Source of the DNA: Propionimicrobium sp. PCR01-08-3
Lineage (GTDB): Bacteria; Actinomycetota; Actinomycetes; Propionibacteriales; Propionibacteriaceae
Reading direction: 5' to 3'
NCBI RefSeq assembly: GCF_030286045.1
Contig: NZ_CP127390.1
Location: forward strand, 2,869,482 to 2,933,481
DNA length: 64,000 nucleotides
The notes under the pieces are model-generated. The model searched no databases and had not been told where the DNA came from. It saw only the letters and a list, made by a program, of their open reading frames with translations. A program made the position numbers and the translations under genes. Below are positions 3,946 through 23,372 of this stretch, piece after piece (positions within the stretch are counted from its first letter, which is position 1; each line of letters opens with the position of its first letter).

Positions 3946-5037
3946 CTACCCGGGAAACAGCGGATTGTGCCCGGCGATGGGCCGGTCGTCCTCGGGCACC
4001 GGGCCGGGCGGGGTGCCGTCGCCAAAGGGAGTTCCGCCGAGCTCCTCGCGTCCGTGAGCGGTGAGCAGCCCCGACAGCTCAGGGCCCCGGGGCACGATCC
4101 CGGTCGGATTGATCTCGGCATGGACGATGTAATAGTGCTGCTTGATCTGCACGAAGTCGATGGTGTCGCCGAATCCGGGGGTCTGGTAGAGATCGCGAAG
4201 GTATGCCCAGAGCACCGGGATCTCGCTGAGTTTCGAACGGTTGCACTTGAAATGCCCGTGATAGACCGCGTCGAACCGCACCAAGGTGGTGAACAACCTG
4301 ACGTCGGCGAGCGTGATGTGATCGCCGACCAGGTAGCGCCTGGTCTCAAGCCTCTCGGTTATCACGTCGAGGGCCTTCCATAGCTCGTCATATGCCTTGT
4401 CATAGGCCTCTTGGCTGCCGGCGAAGCCGCAGCGGTAAACACCGTTGTTGATGGACGGGTAGACCAGCTTGTTGACGTCCTCGATCTCGTCGGCCAATTC
4501 GTCCGGATACAGGTCGGGCGCACCCGCGCGCTGATAGGCGCCCCATTCGCGGATGAAATCGATGGTCATCTGGTCGTAGTCGTTCGTGACGACCTTGCCG
4601 GAGGAGACCTCGACCATGGCAGGCACCGTGATGCCCCGCGGATAGTCCGGCACCCGGGCGAAGTAGGCGTCCTGAAGCCTGGGAATCCCCAGCACCGGGT
4701 CCACTCCATTGGGGTAGACGCCCGCATAGTTCCATGAGCGGACGTCATGGGTGGGCGCTGCCAGGCTGAGTGAGAACGCATCCTCCAGCCCCATCAACCG
4801 GCGGACGATGATGGCCCGGTTCGCCCACGGGCATGCCCTGGCCGCCATCAAGCGGTAGCGTCCCGGTTCGGCGGGCCACAGCATCTCACCTACCCGGCCG
4901 TCGGTTCCCGGCATCGGCCGGGGCGCTGATCCGTCCGGAACCGACGCTACGATGCGGTCACCGATGTAGCTGGCGTCGCGCACGAACTCGCCGTCGGTTG
5001 AGGCATTCTGCGCAGCACCTGCCCAATCCTCGGTCAC
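3946..5037 (-). CDS. Glutathionyl-hydroquinone reductase-like GST (Xi class, YqjG/ECM4 family)
   Basis: A 363-aa protein of the Xi-class glutathione transferase family, which reduces S-thiolated hydroquinones through a catalytic cysteine. The active-site motif is present as RACPWANRAIIVRRLMGLED near residue 87. The C-terminal helical domain has NNGVYRCGFAGSQEAYD and the conserved tail HYYIVHAEINPTGIVPRGPE. Actinobacteria of this type make mycothiol rather than glutathione, and mshA/mshB lie in this window, so the physiological thiol is probably mycothiol (inference). The gene converges on the serine hydrolase gene with only five bases between stops. Confidence 0.9.
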   Translation of the reverse strand: MTEDWAGAAQNASTDGEFVRDASYIGDRIVASVPDGSAPRPMPGTDGRVGEMLWPAEPGRYRLMAARACPWANRAIIVRRLMGLEDAFSLSLAAPTHDVRSWNYAGVYPNGVDPVLGIPRLQDAYFARVPDYPRGITVPAMVEVSSGKVVTNDYDQMTIDFIREWGAYQRAGAPDLYPDELADEIEDVNKLVYPSINNGVYRCGFAGSQEAYDKAYDELWKALDVITERLETRRYLVGDHITLADVRLFTTLVRFDAVYHGHFKCNRSKLSEIPVLWAYLRDLYQTPGFGDTIDFVQIKQHYYIVHAEINPTGIVPRGPELSGLLTAHGREELGGTPFGDGTPPGPVPEDDRPIAGHNPLFPG

Positions 5038-5497
5038 GATTTCCCTCCTCGGCTAGGTCGCCACCCAGCCTACGCACAGCGTTTTCGGACGGGTCGAATT
5101 TCGCCTATTTGGCAACGTGGCCCCAATTCTTAGAAAAGTCCAAACCCCGGGTAGATTCGCCGGGCCATAGTTGCACTTCTGCCGAGAATCCGTTAGCAGC
5201 GCTGTGGCTAGGCATTTTGTCGCCCTTACTGGCCGCGATAAGGGCCGGCGGCGAGCTGCCCGACCGAATTTTTAGTAACGGGCCCGCCGGTTGCGGTGCG
5301 CGGCGGAGGAGCCTTGTACCCGATTCGGGTGTGCAGTAGCGTCGCCGATCATGTGCCTGGGCGGCCCGGCGAACTGAGCGGAACCTCTCAATGGTTCTGC
5401 CGTCAGCGCTAATGCAGGCCGGTTGTCCGCCTTGCTGCAAGCGCGTGGGCACCGAGGCCAGCCGCATGCGAAAACCGAAAGAAGGGGTTACTCAACT
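5038..5497. other. Divergent promoter region before the betaine transporter operon
   Basis: No convincing gene lies in these 460 bases. It separates the GST-like gene (minus strand) from the osmolyte ABC operon (plus strand), so it must carry both promoters. An inverted repeat (GCCCTTA at 5222-5228, TAAGGGC at 5239-5245, 10-bp spacer) is a candidate regulator site. A GC-rich region at 5270-5310 could fold, but I recognise no known riboswitch. Confidence 0.5.
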
Positions 5498-6889
5498 GTG
5501 TCGGTGATCAAAGCGTCACATGTCTTTAAGGTCTTCGGCAGACGCGAAGACGAGATGGTCCGCCGCCTGAAGGCAGGTGCCGACCGCAAAGAGCTGCGTG
5601 CCTTGGGCACCGCGGCCGTCATCGACGTCAGCTTCGACGTTCAACCCGGCGAGATCTTCGTCGTCATGGGTCTGTCCGGCTCGGGCAAGTCGACATTGAT
5701 CCGCACCCTCAACGGCCTCTGGGCGCCCAGCTCGGGTCAGATCGAGGTGATGGGCAACGACATCTCGAAGATGAACGCGACGCAATTGCGTGAGGTGCGC
5801 CGCGACCACATCTCGATGGTCTTTCAGCACTTCGCACTGCTACCGCACCGGACCGTGCGAGAGAACGCCGCCTACGGGTTGGAGATTCAAGGAGTCGATG
5901 CCGCCGAGCGTACGGCCCGTGCTGACAAGTGGCTGAAAAGGGTCGGCCTGGGCGGTTGGGGAGACAAGTACCCCGGCGAGTTGTCCGGCGGCATGCAGCA
6001 GCGAGTGGGCCTGGCCCGCGCGTTGTGCGCCGAAACCGACATCTTGCTGATGGACGAAGCGTTCTCGGCGCTCGATCCGCTGATCCGCCGCGATATGCAG
6101 CAGCTGCTCATCACCTTGCAGCGGGAACTGCAGAAGACGATCGTCTTCATCACCCACGACCTCAACGAAGCCATGCTGCTCGGTGACCGGATCGCCGTGA
6201 TGCGCGACGGCAGGATCGTCCAGATCGGCACCGCGGAGGAAATCCTGACGGCGCCCGCCGACGACTATGTGGCCGAGTTCATTCAGGACGTCGACCGCAG
6301 CCGGGTGCTCACCGCCAGCTCGGTCATGCATCACCCGGCGGGAGTCGTGACTTCAACGACGGGGCCGCACCTGGCCATCCGAAACATGCGCGAGGCCGGT
6401 CTGTCGGGGCTGCTGGTGACCGATCGCAATGATGTGCTGCTCGGCATGATCACCGACTCGGACGCGGTCGAGGCCGCGCATGCCGGTAAGCAGACCGTGT
6501 ACGACATCATCCAGACCGCCGACATCCTGACCGTCCAGCCCGACATCTCGATCTCCGAGCTCTTCGCGCCCAGTGCGACATCGCGGGTGCCACTGTGCGT
6601 GGTCGACGAGAACAACAAGCTGCTCGGCGTCATCCCTCGTGTCGTCCTGCTGGACGCGATGTCGACCGACTCTCACTCCACGGGCCAGCTTCCGGCCGTC
6701 AACGGCGGCGCGAATGGGACTTCCGGAGACAGCGCCGAGACATCGGCCGTGGATGGCCCCGGGCCGGACGGCGAATCTGACACGTGGGGCGAGCCTCACC
6801 CCCAGCGGGCCGACGACAGTACCGCTGAAGACGTCGTCCACTCCGGCTCGGCAGCCGCGTCCCCCACCAAGAATCTTGTCCAGGAGTAA
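5498..6889 (+). CDS. Glycine betaine/L-proline ABC transporter ATP-binding protein (ProV/OpuAA type)
   Basis: A 463-aa ATPase energising osmoprotectant uptake. The nucleotide-binding domain has Walker A GLSGSGKST, signature LSGGMQQRVGLARAL, Walker B ILLMDEAFSALD and the H-loop (FITHDLNEAM). Two CBS domains follow (about residues 270-395), as in OpuA/ProV where they sense ionic strength or nucleotides. About 65 C-terminal residues are Ser/Gly/Asp-rich and probably disordered. The start is GTG 5498, preceded by AAAGAAGGGG; an upstream in-frame start would add residues not seen in the family. It is followed after three bases by the permease gene. Confidence 0.93.
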   Translation: MSVIKASHVFKVFGRREDEMVRRLKAGADRKELRALGTAAVIDVSFDVQPGEIFVVMGLSGSGKSTLIRTLNGLWAPSSGQIEVMGNDISKMNATQLREVRRDHISMVFQHFALLPHRTVRENAAYGLEIQGVDAAERTARADKWLKRVGLGGWGDKYPGELSGGMQQRVGLARALCAETDILLMDEAFSALDPLIRRDMQQLLITLQRELQKTIVFITHDLNEAMLLGDRIAVMRDGRIVQIGTAEEILTAPADDYVAEFIQDVDRSRVLTASSVMHHPAGVVTSTTGPHLAIRNMREAGLSGLLVTDRNDVLLGMITDSDAVEAAHAGKQTVYDIIQTADILTVQPDISISELFAPSATSRVPLCVVDENNKLLGVIPRVVLLDAMSTDSHSTGQLPAVNGGANGTSGDSAETSAVDGPGPDGESDTWGEPHPQRADDSTAEDVVHSGSAAASPTKNLVQE

Positions 6890-19134: not shown

Positions 19135-20448
19135 CTAGATCTGGTAGTCGTCTTCGGATTGCGGATGGCCGCGCAGCAGATCGGCGGACGGCGCTGCCCG
19201 GCGCGCGGCTCTCGGCTGATCGACCATATCCAGCTCGGGGCTGGGCACCACGGCCGGCACCGGCGGCAGGGTGACCTCGAACCGCCAATAGCCTGCGGGT
19301 TTACTGATCGTGATGAAGCCGCCGGCCGCGCGGGCACGTTCTTCGATGCCGAGCAGCCCGAAGGACGGCCGGCTGGTCGACTGCTTCGAGTTGCGGGTGT
19401 GATTGGTGAACTCGGCGCACAGGGCGCCGTCGTGCGGAAAGACCCTGATCACACAGTCGCTCTTCGCAGGAGCATGCTGGACGATGTTGTTCACCGCCTC
19501 GACCGCAATCGCGGCCAGCGTCCTGCTTTGCAGGCTCGTCGGCGCGTCGATGTTCACATCCTGGGTAACCGTGAATCCAACGGCGGCGAGCCGATCGGCC
19601 TGGCCTTCTATCAGCGCAGCCAGAGCGTCCGCATCGATGATTTGGGGCTGGCCGGCACCGAGGCTGGGATCGGTCTGCCGCAACCCGCTCAGCAGCAGCC
19701 GGAGTTCATGCGCCGCGTCATTGCACGAGGTGGCGATCTGGGTGAATTCGTCGGCCAAGTCGGGTGAAGTATCCGGACGCATAGCGGCCATGTGGGCACG
19801 CATCGCCGCCTGCGATATCTTGTGCACCGCGTTGTCGTGCAGCTCGCGGGCCAGGTCGAGGCGAAGTTCTGCGAGGCGTTCTTCAGAGCGCAGGCGTTCG
19901 GCCTCCAGCTGCTCACGGGACGCTCGCATGATCAGTCCGGAACCCACGCTGAGCGCCAATAGTGTCGGTAGGATCGCCGCTGCGCTTCCGGACAGCGAGC
20001 GCCCGCCGCTCGCATGAATGACCATCACATAGAATCCGAGCGCGACCAGCGCAACAGTGATCAGCGCCGCATATCGCGACGAACGACGCACCAATGCGAA
20101 GATCGGGACGAATAGCGCCAGACCTGCGCCGGATACCTGGTCTGCCGGCAGAAACGCCGACGTCACCAGACCGAGGCCCACGATTCCGGCGCCGGCAACC
20201 GAAGATGTCCCGGATACGCCGGCACCGATCGCGAACAACCCGATGGTAATCCACTCCCACGGCTGCTCGGGCGCGTCGGCGATGCCGATGCCGAGCACCA
20301 GTGCCGCCAGGACCGGTTCGAGCCAACGTGTCTGAAGCGCGTCGGCAACCGTACGTAGCTTGCCTTGGCGGACTGCTCCGCGGATCGGCGAGATCAAACT
20401 AGAACCGCTCAGCTCCAGCAGGTCCAGGGGAACATACGGCAATACCAC
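19135..20448 (-). CDS. Membrane sensor histidine kinase (NarL/LuxR-type partner, HisKA_3)
   Basis: About 437 aa. The N-terminal third has five or so hydrophobic segments and no large extracellular domain. HisKA_3 has the phospho-acceptor in LARELHDNAVHKIS (His near residue 204), and the HATPase_c domain has the N-box AVEAVNNIVQHA and a G-box SFGLLGIEERARAAGG. The stop is TAG at 19135. The GTG at 20448 is only one possible start, since it overlaps the small peptide gene; a TTG near 20393 is an alternative. The LuxR-type regulator just upstream on the same strand is its obvious partner. The signal is unknown; the intervening peptide is a candidate. Confidence 0.87.
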   Translation of the reverse strand: MVLPYVPLDLLELSGSSLISPIRGAVRQGKLRTVADALQTRWLEPVLAALVLGIGIADAPEQPWEWITIGLFAIGAGVSGTSSVAGAGIVGLGLVTSAFLPADQVSGAGLALFVPIFALVRRSSRYAALITVALVALGFYVMVIHASGGRSLSGSAAAILPTLLALSVGSGLIMRASREQLEAERLRSEERLAELRLDLARELHDNAVHKISQAAMRAHMAAMRPDTSPDLADEFTQIATSCNDAAHELRLLLSGLRQTDPSLGAGQPQIIDADALAALIEGQADRLAAVGFTVTQDVNIDAPTSLQSRTLAAIAVEAVNNIVQHAPAKSDCVIRVFPHDGALCAEFTNHTRNSKQSTSRPSFGLLGIEERARAAGGFITISKPAGYWRFEVTLPPVPAVVPSPELDMVDQPRAARRAAPSADLLRGHPQSEDDYQI

Positions 20449-20531
20449 GGGTCACGCGTGAAGGTCGTGACGACCAGGGCGATGACGGCCGCGTATTTGG
20501 CAATCGCAGCAGCAGTGATCGACGCTTTCAT
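20409..20531 (-). CDS. Small 40-residue peptide between response regulator and histidine kinase
   Basis: ATG at 20531-20529 is preceded by a strong ribosome binding site (GGTGAGGAG at 20546-20538, six-base spacing). The product starts MKASITAAAIAKYAAVIALV, a positively charged and then hydrophobic segment like a short export signal or membrane anchor. It ends RDPWYCRMFPWTCWS, with two Cys, four aromatic residues and charges. The stop is TGA 20411-20409, and the gene overlaps the first possible start of the kinase gene in another frame. No homologue is recognised. Its position in the two-component operon suggests a signal peptide or kinase regulator; a leader peptide is the alternative. Confidence 0.6.
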   Translation of the reverse strand: MKASITAAAIAKYAAVIALVVTTFTRDPWYCRMFPWTCWS

Positions 20532-20562
20532 GGCAAACTCCTCACCAAAAATTAGGTTATCT

Positions 20563-20611
20563 ACAGGTTAGCCTGTTAAGCGTCCATTGCACCGCATCGA
20601 TTTAGATCGAT
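20563..20611 (-). promoter_or_regulatory. Paired palindromes upstream of the small peptide gene
   Basis: ACAGG (20563-20567) and CCTGT (20572-20576) form an inverted repeat with spacer TTAG. ATCGAT occurs at 20596-20601 and 20606-20611, also separated by a 4-base TTAG. They lie between the response-regulator stop and the peptide ribosome binding site, so they may be regulator-binding sites of an internal promoter. Confidence 0.35.
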
Positions 20612-20629: not shown

Positions 20630-21298
20630 TCAGGAACGCCGCTCGTCAATGAGCCCCCACTCGTAGGCGAGGGTCGCCAATTCGGCACGATTGCGTTTGC
20701 CGAGCCGCCCGAGCAGCCGGCTCACATAGGTCTTCACGGTGCTGGTCGAATATCCCATTCGCTTGCTGATCTGGGCATTGGTGAGCCCGAGGCCGACGAA
20801 TTGGACGAGTTCGATGTCGACGTACGACAGCTCGGCCGGGGGCTGCGAACGGACGCTGGCGCGAGCCAGCACCTGGCACACCAGTTGCGGCGAAATGAGT
20901 GCGTCCCCCGAGTAGGCGCTGCGCACCCCGTGCTGAATCAGTTCCGGACTGTCAGACTTCAGCAAGAAACCGGACGCGCCGGCCGACAGCGCGTCCATCA
21001 GCACATCGTCGCTGGCAAGCGCGGTGAAGCACAACACCTTGAGATTGAACGGCTCCTTGGTCAGCCGCCGGGTCGCTTCGATGCCGTTCAGCCGGGGCAT
21101 ATGGATGTCGACGATCGCCACGTCTGCATTCATGTCGCTCGCCAGTTGGATGGCTTCGACGCCGTCGCAGGCGATCCCGGCCAGGCACATCCCCCCGGCG
21201 GCGCCCAGGTAGGTGGCGACGGCCTTGCGCGCCAATGGATCGTCTTCGACCAGCAGCACCCGAATCTCGTGGTCGTCTGGCGGCGCGGTCGTGTTCAC
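20630..21298 (-). CDS. LuxR/NarL-family DNA-binding response regulator
   Basis: A 222-aa regulator. The receiver domain (about 12-125) has acidic pocket VEDDP, phospho-acceptor in VAIVDIHMPRLNG, Thr in FTALAS and Lys in FLLKSD. The C-terminal LuxR helix-turn-helix is GLTNAQISKRMGYSTSTVKT (about 178-197) followed by SRLLGRLGKRNRAEL. Phosphorylation by the kinase encoded downstream is inferred. The gene starts 59 bp after mshB on the same strand, so it may share that transcript. Confidence 0.92.
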   Translation of the reverse strand: MNTTAPPDDHEIRVLLVEDDPLARKAVATYLGAAGGMCLAGIACDGVEAIQLASDMNADVAIVDIHMPRLNGIEATRRLTKEPFNLKVLCFTALASDDVLMDALSAGASGFLLKSDSPELIQHGVRSAYSGDALISPQLVCQVLARASVRSQPPAELSYVDIELVQFVGLGLTNAQISKRMGYSTSTVKTYVSRLLGRLGKRNRAELATLAYEWGLIDERRS

Positions 21299-21357: not shown

Positions 21358-22125
21358 CTATTGACGGACGAGCCGAAGGCCCGCTGTCAGAGGCAACCCC
21401 TGGTGTTGGCCCCCGACGTGGACGATGTGGTCGTCCACCACGCTCAGCTGGGTCGCGTGGCAGCGCAAGGCGGCGATCACGGTCTGCTTCTGGTCGGCGA
21501 GGTCGTATCGCTCGAAGCCTTCGGAGTCGTCGTCGGATGCCACCTCGACCAATGGCAGCCCGGACGCCCGGGCGGCGGCCACCGCCAGATCGTGGGCCCG
21601 GACGTGATCGGGATGCCCATAGCTGCCCGCCTTGTCGTATCCCACGATCACGGTGGGCCGCACGTGCTCGATCAGGGCCAGCAGATCGGCAACCTCGTCG
21701 TCCAGATCGGACGCCGTAAACGTCTCGGGATCATCGATATCGGCCGGGCCGGCCAGCCCTTCGCGTACCCAGCGCATCCCCGAGTCGTGATAATGCCTGG
21801 GCGCCAGCCCCCCGGCGCGGGCCGGAGGTGTGCCGAGCAGATAATGCTCCGTTATTCCAAGCGTCTCAGTAGCACAGGCGAGCTCCCGCTCACGGACCCG
21901 GATCAGCTCACCGGACGTCGTTTCGGCAGGCAGCACGCCCGCGACGATCTCGCCCTGCTCACCCCTGCTACAGGTCAGCAGCACGACCGGCACGCCGTGG
22001 CCGGTCAGCCACGACAACAACGAGCCGGTCTGCACGGTTTCGTCGTCCGGATGCGCGTGGACGAACAGTGGCTTCACTGAGACAGCCTCACTAGCAGAGG
22101 CAAGAAGTTCCAAAGGAGTACTCAC
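21358..22125 (-). CDS. mshB: Mycothiol deacetylase MshB (GlcNAc-Ins deacetylase)
   Basis: A 255-aa zinc-dependent PIG-L family deacetylase removing the acetyl group from GlcNAc-inositol, the second committed step of mycothiol synthesis. Zn-binding motif AHPDDE (about residue 24) and the second motif YGHPDHVRAHD are present, with CSRGEQGE and YHDSGM as in MshB. The ATG overlaps the mshA stop by four bases, and this fusion-like operon order supports MshB over the related Mca amidase. Confidence 0.88.
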   Translation of the reverse strand: MSTPLELLASASEAVSVKPLFVHAHPDDETVQTGSLLSWLTGHGVPVVLLTCSRGEQGEIVAGVLPAETTSGELIRVRERELACATETLGITEHYLLGTPPARAGGLAPRHYHDSGMRWVREGLAGPADIDDPETFTASDLDDEVADLLALIEHVRPTVIVGYDKAGSYGHPDHVRAHDLAVAAARASGLPLVEVASDDDSEGFERYDLADQKQTVIAALRCHATQLSVVDDHIVHVGGQHQGLPLTAGLRLVRQ

Positions 22126-23372
22126 CGCACCAGCTCCTCGAGATAGCGGGCCTCCAGTTCACGGGCCACGTGCGACCAGGTATGTTGCAGCGCGAACGTG
22201 CGACCGGCCTGAGAAAACATCGCACGGTATTCGGCCTCGTCGGTGAATCTGCGCACGGCTTCGGCCCACACCTCGGGATCTCTGCTCGATAACAGCAGAC
22301 CGGTCTCGCCATCGATCACCGACTCGGGCATGCCGCCGTTGCGGCTTGCCACCACCGGCACACCCGAGGCGGAGGCCTCCAGGTTGATCAGCCCATAGGT
22401 CTCGGAGCGGCTCGGATTCAGCAATGCGCACGCCCCCCGCATCATGGTCGCCAATTCGTCGCGGTCTTGCGAGCCGAGATAGGTGACCTCATCGGTGAGC
22501 CCGAGGGAATCCACCAACTCGCGCAGTTGGCTCGCGTACCACGAGAAATCGGCGGAAGTCTCTCCTGCGATGACCAGCCTCGGACGATGCCCCTCGGGCA
22601 GTGCGGCCAGCGTCCGGACGGCCAGGTCTGGCCCCTTGAGCGGCTGCAATCGGGCAGCGAAGAAGAGATAACAGCCATCCCACGCCCAATGCGGCTCGGC
22701 CGGACGTAGCGGGCGGAATTGCTCGGTGTCGACGCCCGGATAGACCACCGTGACCAGATCCGGGCCGGCGCCGAGCCGATCGATAATCGTCCGTCTTTCT
22801 GCCTCGCTCACCGCGATGATCAGATCGGACTGTTGGGCCACCTGTTGCTCGCCGGCGTTGCGTCCGGACGATTCCGGCTGCTCCCCCTCGTCAAGCGAAC
22901 TGCCCGCAGGAGCGGCGACCGAGTGAAAGCTTTGCAGATGCGGCACGCCCATAGCCCGGGCGATCGGGAGGGCGGCCACCCCGGAGAACCAATGGTGGGA
23001 GTGAATGATGTCGGCCTGATGCCCCGCGCGTAAGAACCATCCGCTCAGGGCTTCGGAGAATGGCTCGATCAGTACTTCCTGCTCGCTCTTGGCAACCGGA
23101 CGCGCAGGTCCGGCGTCCAGATTGAAGAGCGTCACCCCTGGGCGAAGCTCGACACTGGCAGGCGCGCCGGGATCATCGCGCCTGGTCAGCAAACTCACCC
23201 GGTGCCCACGACGGGCCAGCGCAAGCGCCGAATTGAGAGCGACGACGTTCATGCCGCCCGCGTCCGCCGACCCCGGTGAGGCTGTCGGCGAGGTGTGCAT
23301 CGAGACCATCGCGACATGCAAGGACCTGGGTGCGTCGTCGGTCAGATCAGCGCTGGTCACTTGAATACTCAA
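22122..23372 (-). CDS. mshA: D-inositol-3-phosphate glycosyltransferase MshA
   Basis: A 416-aa GT4 retaining glycosyltransferase joining UDP-GlcNAc and inositol 3-phosphate, the first step of mycothiol synthesis. The N-terminal motif SMHTSPTASPGSADAGGMNV is diagnostic of MshA. SFHSVAAPAGSS, the UDP-sugar site region FFAARLQPLKGPDLAV and the ALLNPSRSETYGLINLEA acceptor/donor motif are visible. It overlaps mshB. Its promoter lies in the region shared with the divergent mutarotase gene. Confidence 0.92.
   Translation of the reverse strand: MSIQVTSADLTDDAPRSLHVAMVSMHTSPTASPGSADAGGMNVVALNSALALARRGHRVSLLTRRDDPGAPASVELRPGVTLFNLDAGPARPVAKSEQEVLIEPFSEALSGWFLRAGHQADIIHSHHWFSGVAALPIARAMGVPHLQSFHSVAAPAGSSLDEGEQPESSGRNAGEQQVAQQSDLIIAVSEAERRTIIDRLGAGPDLVTVVYPGVDTEQFRPLRPAEPHWAWDGCYLFFAARLQPLKGPDLAVRTLAALPEGHRPRLVIAGETSADFSWYASQLRELVDSLGLTDEVTYLGSQDRDELATMMRGACALLNPSRSETYGLINLEASASGVPVVASRNGGMPESVIDGETGLLLSSRDPEVWAEAVRRFTDEAEYRAMFSQAGRTFALQHTWSHVARELEARYLEELVR

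Follow-up and report, generated by a model that had tools for sequence, protein, structure and literature searches.

A short Cys-loop peptide gene between a LuxR-type response regulator and a HisKA_3 kinase in Propionibacteriaceae: a possible signal for the neighboring kinase

The peptide gene and its genomic neighborhood

The window, that is, the whole stretch of 64,000 nucleotides from Propionimicrobium sp. PCR01-08-3 that was analyzed, contains a small gene that is absent from the annotation (Table 1). Its product, MKASITAAAIAKYAAVIALVVTTFTRDPWYCRMFPWTCWS, followed by a stop codon, consists of an N-terminal hydrophobic leader, a C-terminal Cys-loop core and a two-residue tail, and is encoded in a single copy in this genome (tblastn, E ≤ 10). 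What a sequence-only reading had claimed for the locus, namely, an ORF led by a ribosome-binding site (RBS), its placement between a LuxR-type regulator and a kinase, and a Trp-containing C-terminus with two Cys, was confirmed: the RBS lies at a six-base spacing from the ATG, Response_reg and GerE domains are encoded upstream and HisKA_3 downstream on the same strand, and the core contains both Cys, with three Trp codons close to the end. The small ORF is real.

The peptide of the window matches no family in Pfam (threshold 0.01), NCBIfam (1) or PHROGs (1). Among three other members of the family described below that were compared with NCBIfam, two have no match and one hits a LysR model with E = 0.1, far under the cut-off of that model; two other members have no match in PHROGs, and a core profile of the family retrieves none of the PDB chains at E ≤ 10. 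Among the matches listed for open-licence PMC papers, no published description of this Cys-loop peptide family was found.

Six hydrophobic 19-residue segments lie within the first 174 residues of the kinase (Kyte-Doolittle), and HisKA_3 is its sole Pfam domain (E ≤ 0.01), which bears out the earlier description of a multi-helix kinase with no obvious sensing domain; HisKA_3 is present in all 17 kinases scanned from the kinase alignment. The listed GTG start of the kinase lies within the peptide gene, and the actual start may be a different one. The conserved part of the kinase starts near residue 42, at WLEP, and the stop codon of the peptide lies 11 bases ahead of an in-frame TTG of the kinase.

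The neighbors in the window are an AMP-binding enzyme, PRPP synthetase, PIG-L, GT4 and aldose epimerase. The best models for the PIG-L and GT4 proteins are MshB and MshA (mycothiol), both below the cut-off; ORFs of similar size adjoin the kinase-regulator pair in the same-genus genome G005. Nine neighbors at loci of another genus, labeled g34 here, include ABC ATPases with two ABC domains each, phosphoglucomutase and abhydrolases, the rest being EamA transporters, a class-V aminotransferase and one protein without a family. Among the neighbors scanned, those in the window and these nine, there is no dedicated peptidase or exporter for the peptide, in agreement with the lack of an adjacent peptidase or transporter gene noted in the sequence-only reading; such a lack is expected if general secretion suffices.

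Table 1. Features at the peptide locus (positions in the window)
Feature	Position	Strand	Evidence or remark
HisKA_3 sensor kinase	19135-20448	-	Pfam; downstream of the peptide gene
Weak terminator-like stem	20421-20405		over the end of the peptide ORF
Peptide gene, 40 codons (40 aa)	20409-20531	-	translated ORF, absent from the annotation
Cys-loop core CRMFPWTC and tail WS (codons 31-40)	20412-20441	-	C-terminal part of the peptide
RBS GGTGAGGAG	20538-20546	-	six bases between RBS and ATG at 20531
Inverted repeat ATCGAT-CTAA-ATCGAT	20596-20611	-	where the G007 repeat stands
LuxR/NarL-type response regulator	20630-21298	-	Pfam Response_reg + GerE; upstream of the peptide gene
PIG-L and GT4 proteins	21358-23372		best models MshB and MshA, below the cut-off

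The same-genus ortholog and selection

A search with the peptide in 57 genomes, including its own, gave some match at E ≤ 10 in 29 of them, and 30 loci were fetched; among these loci, a peptide match with both the regulator and the kinase alongside is found only in the own genome, G005 and G007. The latter two genomes carry an identical peptide, 55% identical to that of the window, at the same place, between a regulator that is 75% identical and a kinase that is 63-66% identical to their counterparts in the window. The other same-genus genomes (G001-G004 and G006) have no regulator at E ≤ 1e-40 and no peptide match beside such a pair. The G005 kinase (L062:4486-6893) is split into two parts, between which an ISAs1-family transposase gene lies (4887-6101, plus strand), and the peptide and the regulator of this genome are intact; G007, which is near-identical to G005 in the stretch compared, has a continuous kinase.

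The comparison of dN/dS that had been suggested as a check was run for the window and G007 (Nei-Gojobori). For the peptide, dN is 0.318 and dS 1.152 over 39 codons, giving a ratio of 0.28, compared with 0.25 for the regulator (dN 0.203, dS 0.808) and 0.23 for the kinase (dN 0.249, dS 1.071). The differences between the two peptide genes are distributed over the three codon positions as 12, 9 and 18. The ratio of the peptide resembles those of the regulator and the kinase, which, coming from one pair of 39 codons, is weak evidence.

Distribution of the peptide family in Propionibacteriaceae

A search with the regulator in 198 family genomes at E ≤ 1e-40 returned 36 rows, which come from 30 genomes, and an identity of at least 45% defines 20 loci in 19 genomes. 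The Cys-loop motif is present at 17 of these 20 loci, with an intact ORF and a start of its own in 15; in the first copy of G160 (L066) and in G068 (L068), the motif and an RBS-led ATG are in different frames. The three loci that lack the motif are G074 and two G064 regulators that flank a single kinase. The conservation of the ORF between regulator and kinase, which had been proposed as a test of the gene, accordingly holds for most of the loci and fails at these three and at the two with broken frames. Among the 16 rows with less than 45% identity, 12 were fetched (L051-L061 and L078) and 4 were not; of the fetched ones, G169 alone contains a family member, at a distance of about 5 kb from the regulator in question.

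Searches with a peptide profile, which are independent of the kinase, found G156, G157, G161 and G028 in the first round, G023, G152, G154 and G197 in the second, and the second copy of G160, G080 and G169 in the third. A kinase homolog is found beside every member discovered in this way except for G080, where a GerE-type regulator is present and there is no kinase before the contig end; in G161, the kinase homolog is a fragment at a contig end, and that of G023 is located about 1 kb downstream of the peptide. The regulators or kinases that accompany these additional members are more distant ones. The counts from these rounds rest on fetched loci only. Hits that are weaker and lack these neighbors were dropped before counting, namely, L093, L095-L101, L103, L104 and L106-L108, which lie outside the training set and have no pair, in the first round (30 loci fetched), L165, L166, L168-L175 and L177 in the second, and L213-L216 and L218 in the third; at L172, the loop pattern is present and the kinase-regulator pair is absent.

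In total, 25 distinct intact members were identified in 26 Propionibacteriaceae genomes, in addition to the two frame-broken loci, and Cys-loop peptides adjoin related kinases or regulators in the genera labeled g1, g34, g17, g9, g12, g22 and g35. Where the regulator and the kinase are far apart (L065, L067, L072, L073, L075, L077 and L144), the peptide gene still precedes the kinase on the same strand. The order in g12 is peptide, divergent ORF, kinase, regulator, and the peptide of G152 is on the other strand, in a convergent arrangement. Leaders and gene order vary across the family; the constant neighbor is a related kinase and/or LuxR-type regulator.

Some of the loci show additional features. 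At L138 and L141 (g12), the divergent ORF between the peptide and the kinase is small and has a hydrophobic start. An opposite-strand ORF of 121-123 amino acids lies between the regulator and the kinase at L072, L073, L075 and L076, and that of L072 has no Pfam match. A TAGACT hexamer located about 7-12 bases before the kinase start was noticed by eye in L063, L064, L066, L068 and L075. Hexamers of this type at such a spacing occur with leaderless actinobacterial transcripts, and a separate promoter for the kinase is possible at these loci.

In the tree of 27 kinases, the peptide-less G064 groups with peptide-bearing kinases at a weak support of 0.65, and the branch of G074 leaves close to the base of the g34-type group; G064 has likely lost the peptide. 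The kinases of g12 and g22 stand far apart from the g34 type and are still accompanied by the peptide.

Chance occurrence of the motif and spread beyond the family

In the 64-kb window, the loop pattern C..[FILMVY]P..C, allowed up to six further residues before the stop, has a single match, which is the peptide ORF. The 28 fetched loci (341 kb) contain 17 matches, of which 15 are family peptides, one of these being the frame-broken G160 copy; some of these loci had served to design the pattern, so that the controls and the profile discoveries provide the fairer test. A single match, at L057, beside another regulator and without a start codon, is found in the 39.8 kb around 11 other regulators, and none in 82.7 kb of chance peptide matches, which makes one match with no start codon in the 122.5 kb of both control sets. 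One match, the known G069 member, also falls within the 86.5 kb that surround copies of the upstream element described below.

In the search for members outside of the family, 72 of 396 phylum genomes gave a hit at E ≤ 0.1 and 13 of 325 class genomes at E ≤ 0.03; by tblastn, neither the 29 new loci read from the former nor the 13 from the latter have a window-type regulator or kinase alongside. A kinase profile (E ≤ 1e-45, six scored candidates per genome) recovered, out of 296 class genomes, the own genome only. At these thresholds and in these samples, the system does not extend beyond Propionibacteriaceae. Even in this family, 28 of 197 genomes have a peptide-profile match (E ≤ 0.05), with five matches located away from such regulator or kinase genes, and the sampled genomes without a match far outnumber those with one.

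The Cys-loop motif and the leaders

The two Cys are present in all 25 intact members and are both invariant in the 20-row core alignment. The loop spacing is C-x6-C in 22 members, x7 in G144 and x8 in G079 and G169, and the fifth loop position is occupied by Pro in 23 of the 25, with F in G005/G007 and R in G086. The loop is followed by a tail of 1-9 residues. The sequence outside the core varies widely between members.

The leaders fall into two groups. The first group is Sec-like: Lys/Arg close to the N-terminus are followed by a hydrophobic run and then by a linker that is neutral or acidic; this layout is clear in the g12 members, G023, G152 and G197, and looser in G028, G080, G169, G005/G007 and the window. 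The sequence GVPSAAA-EDNPGRSSILCRIMPWFCDWS in G023 is an example, and this leader looks cleavable. The second group, which consists of the remaining g34 members, G144 and G148, begins acidic or neutral, has a linker charge of +2 to +5 and, judging from these sequences, would fit Sec export badly. At L072, L075, L077 and in other g34/g17 members, the basic linker before the ring comes with no visible exporter.

The upstream element

A conserved 12-mer, CSRAAGTTGAYC (at most one mismatch), is present upstream of the peptide start in most of the relatives, namely, at 13 of 17 loci, with an expectation of 0.012 per locus that was computed from the rest of the same loci, for an element derived from some of the loci counted. 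It is located 172-276 bases before the Cys core, with exact copies in G063, G068, G069, G144 (two) and G148, and is absent from the window (best match with 3 mismatches), G070, G093 and G079. The element is not strongly enriched genome-wide because the number of exact copies per genome is 3 to 9 versus 0 to 6 for the reversed control (15 genomes).

At some loci, inspection by eye shows that the element is half of an inverted repeat, for example, GTCAACTTTCGG-N13-CCGAAAGTTGAC in G068. An inverted repeat in G007, TCAATCAAC-CAAA-GTTGATTGA, that is, ATCAAC-CAAA-GTTGAT, was also found by eye, and a different repeat stands at this place in the window (Table 1). The repeat in the window is a candidate site to which the regulator may bind.

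A possible signaling function and its alternatives

A role of the peptide as a signal is possible because an exported-looking Cys-loop family recurs beside related kinases. For export, ring closure, binding, the direction of control and the output, we infer the following course of events. The N-terminal leader would take the peptide to the membrane, for the window type presumably via the Sec route. Outside the cell, the two Cys would close an eight-residue ring, C-x-x-hydrophobic-P-x-x-C, through a putative disulfide bond, and the ring with its short tail, whether released or staying near the membrane, would be the ligand of the adjacent six-helix kinase. The kinase would phosphorylate the LuxR-type regulator that is encoded with it, phosphorylation of the regulator by the kinase being the established chemistry of such pairs, and the regulator would probably act at the inverted repeat that precedes the peptide gene, resulting in feedback on signal production. 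That the exported, disulfide-closed peptide is the ligand of the adjacent kinase appears to be the most plausible reading, with a probability of roughly 0.6.

The sequence-only reading had envisaged a secreted or membrane peptide sensed by the kinase, or else a small kinase regulator; the conservation of the peptide beside regulators and kinases in most relatives supports this suggestion, and the kinase presumably senses the peptide instead of only being encoded next to it. A broader proposition is that of a new class of actinobacterial pheromones that would be defined by a C-terminal eight-membered Cys-Pro disulfide ring, export without dedicated machinery, a six-helix HisKA_3 reader found, in the genomes searched, only in Propionibacteriaceae, autoregulation via a GTTGAY-type operator and diverging specificities; we hold this proposition tentatively, at slightly less than even odds. 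Several observations count against the signal model: the poor fit of the second group of leaders to Sec and the lack of an exporter among the neighbors scanned, the divergent ORF between the peptide and the kinase in g12 and the other-strand peptide in G152, the missing kinase in G080 and the kinase fragment in G161, both at contig ends, and the absence of the motif from 3 of 20 regulator loci along with the disagreement of frames in 2.

The main rival to signal reading is a membrane-tethered kinase regulator, whereby the peptide would remain anchored by its leader, with the Cys-loop outside, and would modulate the kinase of the same cell like MgrB does with PhoQ; in a variant of this scheme, the two Cys might serve for redox sensing. 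The window peptide, with its hydrophobic run and an exposed end of 10 to 16 residues, could be bitopic, and the best matches of the two next genes to MshB and MshA, below the cut-off, are a weak hint of a redox theme. However, some members, such as G023, have cleavable-looking leaders, the linker on the supposed outer side is basic in most g34 members, and there are no mycothiol-like genes among the nine g34 neighbors scanned; overall, we consider tethering rather unlikely.

An antimicrobial or self-acting peptide, with the production or immunity controlled by the neighboring pair, seems improbable. Short hydrophobic Cys-loop peptides are common among antimicrobials, and the high variability of the sequence outside the core is compatible with such a function, but no immunity, modification or export genes are found among the neighbors scanned (the window and the nine in g34), and, in the loci read, the peptide tracks the kinase or the regulator rather than other genes. 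Still more remote is a leader (attenuator) ORF, in which translation through the Trp/Cys codons would set the expression of the kinase and the product itself would have no role. The short distance from the peptide stop to the kinase TTG (11 bases, in frame) and the three Trp codons near the end could be accommodated by attenuation, as could the weak terminator-like stem, although 2 such sites compare with 1.0 ± 1.1 in shuffles. Nevertheless, we rate it low because the two Cys and a Pro are conserved at the protein level across the 25 members, many of these have Sec-like leaders, and neither the divergent ORF that separates peptide and kinase in g12 nor the convergent layout of G152 fits.

Comparison with known peptide-kinase systems

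Firmicutes provide well-known examples of ribosomal peptides that signal through kinases, and the peptide described here may act as a chemical signal to the neighboring kinase. In Actinobacteria, according to a 2016 review, quorum sensing has been reported for only 25 of 342 genera, with experimental evidence in nine, and a table in this review enters AI-2 for Propionibacterium. The question is directly testable because the compact peptide-kinase-regulator unit has a short, synthesizable peptide, and the 25 natural variants would allow the study of ligand-receptor co-change.

The ComQXPA system of Bacillus (ComX-ComP-ComA) includes a short peptide gene before a multi-helix kinase, a LuxR-type regulator and a Trp near the end of the peptide. 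The present system resembles it in having the peptide gene directly ahead of a multi-helix HisKA_3 kinase, a GerE regulator and a Trp near the peptide end, but differs in the two Cys and the Pro, the lack of a modified Trp and the Sec-like leader of many members. Membership in ComQXPA was rejected given that no ComQ-like isoprenyl transferase is found beside the peptide, among the neighbors in the window or the nine g34 neighbors scanned.

In the Agr system (AgrD-AgrB-AgrC-AgrA), a short peptide with a ring-forming end is likewise encoded with a multi-helix kinase, but the regulator here has Response_reg and GerE domains rather than LytTR. A disulfide is expected here, not the thiolactone of Agr, because two Cys are present in all 25 intact members. 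AgrB (PF04647) was matched in 0 of 11 genomes at E ≤ 0.01, with hits in 3 of 14 control genomes, none of them over the cut-off, so that this search has no positive control; with the GerE regulator and, subject to this limit, the lack of an AgrB match, membership in Agr was rejected as well. The double-glycine pheromones of streptococci (CSP/BlpC type) are also encoded with a two-component pair, the regulator being of the GerE type here, and no C39-type transporter is found among the neighbors in the window and the nine in g34 that were scanned.

MgrB, as described in PMC10576120, is a small inhibitor of PhoQ in enterobacteria that has a hydrophobic stretch and, at its outer C-terminal end, two Cys (positions 28 and 39) followed by a further C-terminal segment. 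By that description, the two cases would share a small protein with a hydrophobic stretch, two Cys at the outer C-terminal end and a single kinase target; in contrast, the Cys here form an x6 loop in 22 of 25 members, near the very end of the peptide, and the leader is highly variable and, in some members, cleavable-looking.
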